Below, piece after piece: positions 1,723-6,985 of a stretch of 64,000 bases of DNA. Position numbers and translations under genes: made by a program. The notes beneath the pieces were generated by a model, which made no database searches, was not told the DNA's origin, and saw nothing but the letters and a program-made list of their open reading frames with translations. The DNA is taken from assembly GCA_956465555.1 (NCBI GenBank), contig OY101130.1:682001-746000 (forward strand), in the 5' to 3' direction. The stretch's first letter is position 1; every line of letters begins with the position of its first letter. The stretch is from Nitzschia sp. pyKryTriq1. Taxonomy: Eukaryota > Bacillariophyta > Bacillariophyceae > Bacillariales > Bacillariaceae.

Positions 1723-2028
1723 TTTGAGTTCGTTTTGAATCGAATGTGGTATTCTGGAAAGCAGTCTCGGCAACAAAGGGTCCTTCGAAACGAAAGATGA
1801 ATAATGGCAAAAGAAAAGCTTGGACGCAGCGGTTGGATGGTGGCGTAGTTTTACTTTCGTCGGTGGGGGAAAAAGATGAGAACGTCCAACGCGTGTGCGA
1901 TCATTGGCTGGCTGCCACTAGAAGCTCATTACCCAATTACTCGAATCCAAGTAGTCAAAAGCCGAATTGGATCGATGCGTGGTCACGACAGACGGATGCG
2001 ATGAATGAATGATGAATGAACCGATGTA

Positions 2029-2036
2029 TGACGTCA
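2029..2036. promoter_or_regulatory. TGACGTCA palindrome (bZIP/CRE-type site)
   Basis: A perfect CRE octamer lies in the gap between the helicase start and the copia fossil, flanked by GAAT/ATTC-rich repeats that can fold back. TGACGT-type elements are known bZIP targets in diatom CO2-responsive promoters. That this copy works, and on which gene, is inference. The helicase start is about 300 bp away. Confidence 0.35.
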
Positions 2037-2094
2037 TGATGATGATGTCATTCATTCATTCATTCCTGTTCCGATCCCGAGTTTATTCGTGGTC

Positions 2095-2510
2095 GGTGAT
2101 GGCATCAGTTATTCCCAGTTCCCAGAACTTCACTGTTGGGAATAATGCACTAACAATCACTACCGGTAAGGTACATGAATATCTTGGCATGCGAATCGAC
2201 TACTCACAGGAGGGCAAAGTGATCTTCACCATGCCACACATGACGGAAGAGGTCCTGAAGCAAATACCCAAGGAACTGGAGAAGGGTCCCAGCGTGACAC
2301 CAGCCGCGAACCATCTATTCATGGTGAATCCGGATGCCGAACGACTATCCGATCAGGACCGGGAGCTATTTCATCGTATCACGGCACAGTTACTCTATAT
2401 GTCTAAACGTGCTGGACCCGATCTACAAACCGCCGTGTCCTTCCTCACCACGAGGGTACAAGCGCCCGACATCGACGACTTTCGAAAACTTGGAGGACCA
2501 GACGATCGAC
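2095..2510 (+). mobile_element. Ty1/copia (CoDi-like) retrotransposon fossil: C-terminal reverse-transcriptase piece
   Basis: The translated stretch has the copia RT signature KVHEYLGMRIDYS, then HRITAQLLYMSKRAGPDLQT and a TTRVQ-PD-DDFRKLG end. This matches the last part of the RVT_2 domain of diatom copia elements. No integrase, gag, RNase H or paired LTRs were seen here. It is a broken, truncated fossil. The reading frame over the surviving part is still fairly intact, so it is not very ancient. Confidence 0.8.
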
Positions 2511-2916
2511 GTGGTTGAAGTTTCACGTCGACCAATCTCATCCATTATAAACGAATGGTCGGCAGAGACCAAGCGATCGTATGCAGATGTAGTTAAAACA
2601 GAGAAAGCGGCTCTTGCCACTTTCTCTGTCAAATGAGTTTGTGAAAGTGGTTTTGTTTTAGCCTTGTTTACCACTAGTATACAAAGGTAGCATCGTCCGA
2701 CCCAGTTTGTTTTAAGAACACTGGATATAGTCGCACCGATACATAGTTCCTCAACATTCACGACTGAAGAGAAGAGAGGTGAAGCAAAAGTAGTGTTCGC
2801 CGCCGCATTCCGAAAAATAAGCTTCAAAGCAACTGGAGCTCACAAAACAACAAACCATCCATCAAACCACAACAGCAACAAAGAAAAGGAGCCAAAACAC
2901 ACCTTACTCACTCACG
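2511..2916. other. gap between copia fossil and LITAF gene
   Basis: AT-moderate sequence with no recognised gene. It may hold further decayed element sequence, and its 3' part must hold the LITAF 5' UTR and promoter. A CA-rich leader (CAACAGCAACAAAG) sits just before the ATG at 2917. Confidence 0.4.
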
Positions 2917-3408
2917 ATGACAATGAGCAAAACATACCCTTATAATCCCAACAGCAGCAAAAACGATCAATATGATGCCGCCTCATCAAGTGGGCGACCG
3001 ATCCATCATGCCAACACAAACGCTACCCCAATCTACGACCCGAACGACTTTCAACAGAGTCCGGATTATGCGACCGTTAGTACAAGCGAAGGCACCCAGC
3101 AGATTCCAGCCTCTAGCGTCGTCATTCAAGAACCAGGCAGCTACGCTATTGTCGAAAATCCGAGATATGTGAATATTGACAGTTGAAAGCCCGTTGTTCT
3201 GACGTATTGCCCGAGATGTGCCAAGGAACACGCCATGACGCACACACGGACCAAAGCTACTGGAACAACTTGGCTCTGCGTAGTTGCTGGAGTCTTTATT
3301 TTCTGGCCACTATGCTGGGTTCCATTGGTAATCACGCCTCTGAAACAAACCAATCATTACTGTGACAGCTGCGGAAGCAAGGTTGGAAGAGTCAAGCCGG
3401 GTCAATGA
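2917..3408 (+). CDS. LITAF-domain zinc-binding membrane protein; frame crosses a TGA
   Basis: LITAF-like proteins are monotopic proteins of late endosome and lysosome membranes. Residues 1-89 form a Pro/Tyr/Ser-rich N-terminus. A TGA follows at 3184-3186. The same frame then continues with CPRC, a hydrophobic membrane-insert stretch (TTWLCVAGVFIFWPLCWVPL) and HYCDSCGSK, the two CxxC knuckles and hydrophobic core of a LITAF domain, ending at 3408. The TGA could be a selenocysteine codon, programmed readthrough or a disabling mutation. It would also disappear with a weak candidate intron at 3076-3189 (GTTAGT...AAG, phase 0, 114 nt). The domain call is firm; how it is expressed is open. Confidence 0.75.
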
Positions 3409-4257
3409 TCGTGATGATTCTAGTACTACTCGTCGTGGTCGTAGTCGTTTGGACTACACGATAGCTCGGCACCAGGTAACACCTTTATCATTGGTGTATC
3501 TATTATGTATTCAGCAGCACTGCTCCAAAACTAAGTAGTAGTCACTTCGTTTGCATCATCGACAACAAGATAGAGTTGCTTTTTTGGAGATAGTTTATTA
3601 GTATCATTACAGTATTATTTTTTGGCTGGCACTGCGCGATGGGCTCGCGCGTAGTTGCAGCAGCATGAAGATGATTCAAAAAGCAGTTTGTGGAATAAAT
3701 ATGACGATCGAGAAAGTGTGGCATTTGAGCAGTCTACCGTCTCAGTTGCCCGCCGCCTACCGCTTGCACCATGTGGATATCCACGAACATAAAAGGAGAT
3801 GGCGTTGGTGGAAGAGGCGACCGCAGCGCCCCGAAACCGACTGTCAAGAACTGCGACTAGCTACTACTTGTAGTAGTAGAGAGGAAGGGAGAATGCAGAT
3901 GATTCTCACGGTGATGAGCTTTCTTGGCGCTTGGCGTTTCCACGACTTTCGTTCGATGGGCGGTTTCGATTCCTTTGGTTCAGTGTCGTTGTTTTGGAGA
4001 AAACCATATTGATATGCATGAAACCGAAATCTTCACCGAAGCGTTTCATGGCGCCAAAAACAAACTGGGAGCCTTCGGCATGGGTCACGCAGCGGTTTTC
4101 TGGATGTTTCGGTCTCGATTGAACGTGGCGAATAAAACGGCACTCCAACCACGGTGCTGTTTTTAGAGTCGGGGTATCGGACAACGCAACCAACCATAGC
4201 ATTCTCACTTTCCGAAAGCAAAAGTATTTTCTACCAGATTGCAGAACATTTCGCACC
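3409..4257. other. gap, no gene recognised
   Basis: The first 60 bases after the LITAF stop contain a 6-bp stem with a 5-nt loop (GTAGTC/GACTAC near 3450), perhaps a 3'-end hairpin. The rest holds only short overlapping ORFs without protein-like composition. The last ~100 bases should be the promoter and 5' UTR of the next gene. Confidence 0.5.
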
Positions 4258-4953
4258 ATGGTGAAGTTCCTCCGTCCCAGTACCAGTGTCCTCTTCTGGG
4301 GGCTTCTCGTCGCCGTTGCCACAAGGATCCAGTCAGTATCGGCCTCTACCTACCTTCGCTCTTCGTCTCGTCCAGACTCTGTTACTAGGGTTCAGGTGAG
4401 CTCCTTTGGTTTGGTTGCAGGGAACCGAGTAGTGCATCGCAAGAGTGAAACAAAATCTCCTGCGAATAAGAAAAGCAAAACGGGTAAGCAATCTTCGGAA
4501 AGCGCAAGTGGACCTTCGTCCAAATCCTCCAAGAAGGGACATGCAACAACTATGGCTCCATCGAGCAGCGCGAATCCTTCTTCTGTACCTTCAGCCAATC
4601 CCTCATCAACTCCGAGTGGCTTGCCCAGTGCATCACCGTCGACGGCAGAGCCTTCTGTCTCTCCGAGCTCTCTTCCCAGCGATGCGCCCAGTCTCATACC
4701 CAGCGATGCACCCAGCCTCACACCCAGCGAGGGTCCTTCGCTGATTCCCTCAAATCAGCCTAGTCTTGAGCCATCAACAACCCCCAGTATTTCTCCAACC
4801 ATTGTGATTGCAGCCGATCAAATCGACCAGGAGCTGGACGACGAAAAAGGAGGTTTGGAGATTTCCCAAAAAGCCTTGATTGGTAGCATGGTAGTCTTGG
4901 CAGCAGCTGTTGTGGGTGGATTGACGTTCTATTACAAGACACGTGATCAATAG
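4258..4953 (+). CDS. PSxxPS-repeat cell-surface protein with C-terminal membrane anchor
   Basis: A 231-residue protein. Residues 1-30 form a cleavable signal peptide (hydrophobic core ending VSASTYLR). Residues ~60-95 are Lys/Ser-rich. Residues ~100-178 are a Ser/Pro-rich tract of PSxxPS units such as SDAPSLIPSDAPSLTPS, a style common in diatom surface and cell-wall associated proteins. Residues ~203-225 form one transmembrane helix (ALIGSMVVLAAAVVGGLTFYY) with a short basic tail. The likely product is a heavily O-glycosylated type I surface protein. Low complexity limits any family call. Confidence 0.8.
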   Translation: MVKFLRPSTSVLFWGLLVAVATRIQSVSASTYLRSSSRPDSVTRVQVSSFGLVAGNRVVHRKSETKSPANKKSKTGKQSSESASGPSSKSSKKGHATTMAPSSSANPSSVPSANPSSTPSGLPSASPSTAEPSVSPSSLPSDAPSLIPSDAPSLTPSEGPSLIPSNQPSLEPSTTPSISPTIVIAADQIDQELDDEKGGLEISQKALIGSMVVLAAAVVGGLTFYYKTRDQ

Positions 4954-5554
4954 AGAGCGAAAATAATCATCATCAAATGTTGGAAATTGTTCCACGAGAG
5001 TTCGCTGGGGTGCACCCAACACACGCTAGCTTTGATTTTCAACCATCGTGGTCGACAGTTCCTCATTTTCTTCAAGTTGATGTAGCACCTTCCTGGTAGT
5101 GTCTGGATTCACAACCTGCAGGTGTCTTACGCAACTCACCTTAGTGAAGTTTAAGGCTTTATGTAATATGCGGTATCAATGAGTTGTAGTTATCGTATTC
5201 CCTTTTCGCTTGAAGCCTTGTGTCATTGTCGAGAAGGAAAATATTTGAGTGGTTTCAATAGGTTGGGTCGTTGAGACGAGAAGTAGGCCTCCAATCGTCT
5301 GCACGATTTCCATCCGCAAAAGCAAGACCAAGGAATACAATACCTTTTCTTCGCGATCTATAAAATACGTGTACGCAAAATCCTACTCGTCCTGGTACCA
5401 TCAGGAGGCACCCAATGATTATTCACAGTTTCATGGTATGTCTATGAGCCACTCAAGCTAGCGGAACGGCTGTTTTTAAATCTGTTTCAATCTAGATACG
5501 GACATTCACCCGCCCAAGCCAGCGGAAGAACTTCGTGTGTCCGATCATTGTTGC
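4954..5554. other. gap between tail-to-tail genes
   Basis: This lies between the 3' end of the surface-protein gene and the 3' end of the RS-rich gene, so it should hold two 3' UTRs. Only short unsupported ORFs were seen. Confidence 0.5.
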
Positions 5555-6985
5555 TTATGATCCTCCTCGCGTCACCAAATGCAAGAGGGAAACCTTCTCT
5601 GGCCTTGGCACCTCTTTTCTCTCGATACGAACTCTGCTCTTTTCTCGATCTTCGGGCCAAAACACTGCTAGAAAACCAAGTGATGCAAGGCAAACTGCCT
5701 TGTTTACTGGAGCGGCTGCCCCTTCTCCATACATGACAGTAGAAAAGGAATACAAAAAGTTTACCAGCATTCGCATCACCCTGTGGAAGATCTCCGATAC
5801 ATCCGATTCGGATACCGAGCTTGTTTTGTTGCTTGTATTTTCTGTCAGAGCTGTCATCACACTCATAGAAGATGTGGACATCTTCCTGTCTTGCTTGGTG
5901 TGCTGTGACCAGGAAGGGCCGTCCCCGTCGTAGCTTGATACCGACGATGCAGATCCGATGTTTAGAACGCACAGTTCCCGCATTTCAGTAATCTGAGAAT
6001 CACTTGCCCTACTGATCGACAAATCATCAAATGCACTGAGCCTGTCTTGCTTCAGAAATGATGATGGCCTCAAGCCAGATTTCAGGATCTTACTTTTGCC
6101 TTGCTTATCCACGTTCGTTTGGGTGGGATCAACGTTTTCACGAATAAACGCCGTCGCCTTCTTGGCAATTTTTTCGCTTACTTTTTTCTTCAGCGTTTCC
6201 TCGCGTCGATCCGATCGATCTGATGACGATCGACTTCGGTGTCTTGTCGCCTCATCGTCGGAAGGTCTTCGTCGCCGAGTCGAGACTTGTGCGCGATTTC
6301 TGCTCGTTGTACGCCCTCGCGACCGTGAACTTGATGTTCTTTGTGTCCGCGAGGAATGAGCGGATCTGCTCACTGCCGACTCATCCTCGGTAAGACTATC
6401 CTTTCGTAGATCTGGCATCATGTTATACGTAGGAAGGTCTTTAGAGGAGATCCTGTTGTCATGGCTAACACCGTCACCTCTTTTCCCCGCATCGCATCCA
6501 CCGCATAAGCTCGACTCGACAAGCTCGAAAAGATACTCAATTCCCTCCCCTTTTCGCTCTGTGCTCGGGAACTTGTCGTTCTGGTGGAAAGCGTAGGATA
6601 AATCCATTTTGCATCTCCCTGGCATGTCAGTACCACAACCTGGGGATTTGCTTGTCATTGGCCCCGCTGCACACACTGCATCAAACTCTGGGCCTGCCTC
6701 TTGGCCGTCGTCGTCATCATCTCTTGTTTCAGGTCCGCTGACAGCGGAGCAATCATCGTCATCGTACTCCAGCATTTCTCCAGCTAGACAATCTGTGCGT
6801 ATCCCATCTTTGGCAACCGAAAATTCGTGTGCCATTTCCTTGGTTGCAGCGACGGCCGTCGACAAGCAGTTAGTAGTACCTTCTAATTGACGATGACTAG
6901 AAGAATCGTTGCCAGGCTTTGCGACTTTGTCAACAATCATGGAACTTGGTGAGGACGATCCTAGACTTTTGATCTTGGCAACCAT
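5555..6985 (-). CDS. hypothetical protein with RS-rich centre
   Basis: An intact 476-residue frame from an ATG. It is acidic early (YDDDDCSAVSGPETRDDDDD), has an Arg/Ser-rich block at ~215-270 (RTSSSRSRGRTTSRNRAQ, then RHRSRSSSDRSDRR) and Lys-rich helix-prone sequence at ~275-300. Near the C-terminus is an amphipathic or hydrophobic stretch (IFHRVMRMLVNFLYSFSTVM, then AVCLASLGFLAVFW). RS blocks are typical of splicing-linked or heavily phosphorylated proteins, but there is no RRM or other named domain. The C-terminal hydrophobic part could anchor it to membrane. Function unknown. Confidence 0.65.
   Translation of the reverse strand: MVAKIKSLGSSSPSSMIVDKVAKPGNDSSSHRQLEGTTNCLSTAVAATKEMAHEFSVAKDGIRTDCLAGEMLEYDDDDCSAVSGPETRDDDDDGQEAGPEFDAVCAAGPMTSKSPGCGTDMPGRCKMDLSYAFHQNDKFPSTERKGEGIEYLFELVESSLCGGCDAGKRGDGVSHDNRISSKDLPTYNMMPDLRKDSLTEDESAVSRSAHSSRTQRTSSSRSRGRTTSRNRAQVSTRRRRPSDDEATRHRSRSSSDRSDRREETLKKKVSEKIAKKATAFIRENVDPTQTNVDKQGKSKILKSGLRPSSFLKQDRLSAFDDLSISRASDSQITEMRELCVLNIGSASSVSSYDGDGPSWSQHTKQDRKMSTSSMSVMTALTENTSNKTSSVSESDVSEIFHRVMRMLVNFLYSFSTVMYGEGAAAPVNKAVCLASLGFLAVFWPEDREKSRVRIERKEVPRPEKVSLLHLVTRGGS

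Follow-up and report, generated by a model that had tools for sequence, protein, structure and literature searches.

An in-frame TGA ahead of an intact LITAF-like domain in Nitzschia: a probable nonsense mutation in a duplicated gene

The closest described systems for a gene with an in-frame TGA inside an otherwise open frame are selenoprotein genes and duplicates that have become nascent pseudogenes or carry loss-of-function alleles. In diatoms, 20 to 44 selenoprotein genes occur (PMC7539508), and the word LITAF does not appear in the main text of that article (word search). Among the papers listed for LITAF with diatom and for LITAF with selenocysteine, none dealt with this subject, as judged by titles and the beginnings of abstracts. 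We describe here a gene of the LITAF/SIMPLE family (PF10601) in the diatom Nitzschia sp. pyKryTriq1, the frame of which is broken by a TGA just before the zinc domain. The window (the whole stretch of 64,000 nucleotides analyzed) is part of contig C16, and the genome searched amounts to 40.65 Mb in 20 contigs. Our conclusion is that the TGA probably reflects a nonsense mutation of recent date in a duplicated LITAF-like gene, or a single nonsense allele of that gene.

The frame, on the forward strand, comprises 164 codons with both stops counted (162 sense codons), with 89 residues before the internal TGA and 73 between it and the terminal TGA (3406–3408) (Table 1). A single frame runs throughout, and neither a second internal stop nor a frame shift is present in 2917–3408. 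The part downstream from the internal TGA matches PF10601 (zf-LITAF-like) from position 5 to position 69 of the 70 in the profile, with 58.6 bits (cut-off 23.8) and an E of 7e-16. Both CxxC knuckles (CPRC and CDSC) can be read directly from the translation, with a hydrophobic stretch between them. Counted from the TGA, the first Cys of the domain is codon 8, and the next in-frame ATG lies past the first CxxC. The translation and the profile match thus agree with the preliminary description, in which the 89 N-terminal codons and a complete LITAF domain shared one frame interrupted solely by a TGA a few residues ahead of the first CxxC, without frame shift or loss of a zinc-binding Cys. The N-terminal peptide appears of low complexity by eye and, in a protein search of the genome (E up to 1), retrieved itself only; its last part does align with a paralog, L005.

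Table 1. Coordinates of the features in and around the interrupted LITAF-like gene (positions in the window)
Feature	Position	Strand	Basis
Frame resembling a Copia-type reverse transcriptase, then the 265-base repeat	2009–2758		by eye
Dispersed repeat of about 265 bases, ending 158 bases before the ATG	2494–2758	+	DNA search of the genome
N-terminal part, 89 codons, no Pfam match	2917–3183	+	translation and Pfam search
GT-AG segment of 114 bases spanning the TGA in frame, longest of five such segments and best in appearance, not favored	3076–3189	+	listing of donors and acceptors
13 codons just before the TGA matching the exon of L005, AIVENPRYVNIDS / SRIESPLYIRIDT	3145–3183	+	ungapped BLOSUM62 score 33
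In-frame TGA; Arg in L005, L002, and L001	3184–3186	+	comparison with paralogs
73 codons with the complete LITAF-like domain, then the terminal TGA	3187–3408	+	Pfam search

A search of the genome for the LITAF family gave at least 14 places. Five of them score between 53 and 66 bits (the window gene, L005, L002, L003, and L001), and the remaining nine share one weak score (26.1 bits). The two of these nine that were inspected (L006 and L008) lie in a Cys-rich protein resembling part of a repeated mobile element and are not LITAF genes. The proteins of L002 and L003 being identical, three distinct LITAF sequences accompany that of the window. L002 (C10:203509) and L003 (C10:211730) are 8.2 kb apart with identical neighboring frames, which looks like a recent segmental duplication. 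The nearest relative of the window gene is L005, on contig C10, with a DNA match of 71% over 3175–3409 and, in the DNA alignment, some resemblance in the 5′ leader. It has a full-length open frame of 141 residues, with one exon across the site of the TGA, and a PF10601 score of 52.2 bits. Since L005 contains both halves in one open frame, the two halves of the window frame are no chance join. The start region of L005 is present twice within 460–1320 (around 612 and 1281), each time behind an array of AAAGC pentamers, and its 5′ end thus appears to be partly duplicated. Outside this genome, no LITAF relative was found in one scan of bacterial and archaeal genomes or in one scan of viral contigs, and a PDB search returned no real relative (nine weak matches, best E 0.12).

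The surroundings of the window gene contain other elements. The repeat upstream of the ATG recurs in at least 12 other places of the genome, with 96%–100% identity over all or part of its length, and may have changed the promoter or the 5′ leader of the gene; two of these other places are arranged head to tail on contig C9. Downstream (4258–4953), there is a frame of 231 codons with hydrophobic stretches at both termini and many Pro-Ser repeats, which we take to be of a type found in diatoms. Elsewhere in the assembly, contig C20 (123.5 kb) is plastid-like, with psbA, a Cpn60-family gene, and other frames resembling plastid genes by eye. The solved structure closest to its PsbA is 6jlu, presumably photosystem II of Chaetoceros gracilis.

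The codon aligned with the internal TGA is CGC in L005 and CGA in both L002 and L001, all three for Arg, and the protein alignment places the same residues there (L003 enters with the protein of L002, its own codon at the site not having been read out). CGA is one transition away from TGA. The 13-residue match to L005 just before the TGA (Table 1) was equaled by none of 20,000 shuffles of the 36-residue segment, and the alignment score of that whole segment against L005 (41) was reached by 24 of 5000 shuffles. Because these 13 residues match the same exon of L005, the TGA sits in old coding sequence and did not arise in an inherited intron.

With Arg at the site in three other distinct LITAF sequences of the genome, a disabling mutation, which the preliminary description offered as an alternative, becomes the best supported reading; an intact L005, with its CGC in a contiguous exon, adds to it. 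The repeat upstream of the ATG also speaks for this reading, as do the negative results for a readthrough structure and, in weak tests, for a SECIS. An Arg codon would have turned into TGA in a duplicated gene for a LITAF-like zinc domain, and the mutation would be either fixed or carried by one allele. Translation would then stop after the 89-residue peptide without producing the LITAF domain, since the first in-frame ATG past the TGA falls after the first CxxC. The presence of an intact L005 would permit such a loss of the window copy. On the scale of the history of the gene, the mutation would be recent, given a domain without a second lesion.

On the other hand, the lack of any other disabling change and a domain as conserved as that of a working gene count against a nonsense mutation, as do GT-AG segments with lengths divisible by three that span the TGA. 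Over 72 codons of the domain, the comparison with L005 gives dN 0.21 and dS 1.57 (near saturation), with dN/dS 0.134. Where L005, L002, and L001 all agree (23 columns), the window gene departs in a single one, and the corresponding test of L005 gives the same result, 22 of 23 kept. The low ratio and these kept columns mostly reflect the period that preceded the TGA. Relative-rate tests disagree: with L002 as outgroup, 10 residue changes are unique to the window gene and 1 to L005 (p 0.012), whereas with L001 they number 2 and 5, respectively (p 0.45). The domain of the window gene shows no firm sign of decay. A single interruption in a gene otherwise intact would also be expected if one base had been wrongly sequenced or assembled and the true gene were whole. 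We regard such an error as quite unlikely, substitutions being less usual than indels in long reads.

The preliminary description had also raised a missed intron at 3076–3189. In its present form, that reading calls for a new in-frame intron (an exitron), spliced from some or all transcripts, by which 38 codons would be removed together with the TGA and the frame kept. The segment begins with GT and ends with AG, its 114 bases are divisible by three, it is in phase 0, and its donor reads GTTAGT. Five GT donors keep the frame with the acceptor at 3189, the one at 3076 and four others giving segments of 72, 69, 39, and 21 bases. The length of the candidate falls within that of the six introns kept for reference (78–252 bases), one of which also ends in AAAG, so that the acceptor alone is no ground for dismissing it. 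However, the last part of the segment, the 13 codons before the TGA, is homologous to an exon of L005; the segment is thus not noncoding in relatives, and the intron would have to be new and not inherited. Further, the stretch from the TGA to the first CxxC offers a single possible AG acceptor, at 3189, in competition with a CAG that lies seven bases upstream of it. Pyrimidines make up 40% of the 20 bases ahead of this AG, against 50%–80% in the six reference introns, and the donor begins with GTT, where those introns have GTA or GTG, both comparisons being weak and partly circular.

The reference set is small, and three of its donors were set by eye. Of seven chaperonin-family genes, six received eight introns in all from spliced alignment, and the seventh (L038) none; four were kept, with the donor in L042 moved by hand, and two introns were added by eye, one in the SepSecS gene and one in a DEAD-box gene of the window. 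The four proposals that were dropped (donors GTT, GTG, GTT, and GTC) looked like artefacts of distant references, coding-like and without typical splice signals; the comparison of donors is partly circular because introns were dropped partly for missing such signals. A possible second intron of L047 and the intron of the Rdx gene L034, the acceptors of which are unsettled, were left out. The codon-usage score of 3076–3189 is the highest of the six frames in the frame of the gene itself (0.228) but uninformative, since the certain coding region 3190–3408 scores −0.042 and one intron 0.488. What stands of the earlier proposal is a GT-AG segment of suitable length in frame; the match of its last 13 codons to an exon and the single usable AG weaken it, and we consider splicing of this segment unlikely.

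Reading of the TGA as selenocysteine, which the preliminary description put first together with programmed readthrough, can be compared with true selenoprotein genes of the same genome. The organism very probably uses selenocysteine and makes selenoproteins, as judged from three tRNA-Sec matches over the cut-off, a gene for SepSecS, a SelT-like gene with TGA at the CxxU position (after CAS), and four GPx genes, three having TGA and one Cys at the active site. The in-frame TGA of the SelT-like gene and of these three GPx genes (L035, L051, L052, and L053) thus falls where Sec is expected. For the site in the window gene, on the other hand, the paralogs L005, L002, and L001 have Arg and not Cys. 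In addition, the terminal stop of the window gene is TGA, a codon that terminates none of the four selenoprotein genes (TAA, TAA, TAG, and TAA).

No SECIS element was found near the window gene either, in tests of low sensitivity. An Rfam SECIS search of 2700–6200 gave none; genome-wide, the model scored 133 of 718 candidates and reported no SECIS among them. In our first scan, 93 of 100 shuffles were as good as the sequence near the window gene, and of the four selenoprotein controls SelT alone gave a convincing result (1 of 100 shuffles as good; 34, 89, and 100 of 100 for the GPx genes). The second scan, too strict, found nothing near the window gene and had candidates in a single control of the four, which was not SelT. 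The third detected none in the window or in SelT but gave candidates in all three GPx controls, as well as in 47 of 88 stretches of background. The preliminary description had seen no convincing SECIS shape just downstream. The SelT gene itself has a convincing SECIS-like hairpin 383 bases past its stop codon, and Rfam SECIS_1 reported none in the genome. Selenocysteine at 3184–3186 is extremely improbable in our view, given the Arg of the paralogs and the second use of TGA as terminator. Even in an organism that makes selenoproteins, an open and conserved frame around a TGA is by itself no sign of selenocysteine; the residue of the paralogs at the site is more telling.

Readthrough of the UGA, programmed or basal, would yield a short soluble protein together with a little of the full-length LITAF form. 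An intact domain downstream from the TGA, without a second lesion, is consistent with this. CUA and CARYYA are 3′ contexts that promote readthrough; the TGA of the window gene is followed by AAG, and the fold of the next 120 bases has a z of −0.33 (65 of 200 shuffles as good). Moreover, the stop is not conserved, since none of the three distinct paralogs has it. Neither context nor fold gives positive evidence for programmed readthrough, and very little weight is left to it.

The nonsense mutation and a partial rescue could also be combined. After the change from Arg to TGA in the duplicate, the LITAF domain could still be made, either through the cryptic GT-AG pair of 3076–3189 used as a new intron or through tolerated readthrough; such a sequel is rather doubtful. 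If a rescue by splicing or by decoding were true, the gene would illustrate cleanly how the birth of an intron, or readthrough, can counter a nonsense mutation. Behind the nonsense mutation, the new intron, the assembly error, and the readthrough rank in that order, and selenocysteine is unlikely. From the preliminary description, the disabling mutation is thus retained, the two readings placed first become unlikely, and the missed intron is weakened.

Compared with the LITAF/SIMPLE family, the window gene has the domain over 65 of the 70 profile positions, with the two CxxC around the hydrophobic stretch, but its frame is broken before the domain and its N-terminal part is without a Pfam match. 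With the paralog L005, it shares the architecture, 68% identity in the domain, and similar residues up to the site of the TGA, whereas L005 has Arg (CGC) at the site, ends in TAA, and is without interruption. Like the SelT-like and GPx selenoprotein genes of the genome, it is conserved and open apart from a TGA in frame; it differs from them in relatives without Cys at the site, in the TGA used as terminal stop, and in the SECIS searches, which found none. From nascent pseudogenes and loss-of-function alleles no difference is seen in the sequence: as in these, one disabling codon stands against intact paralogs while the remaining frame is intact.
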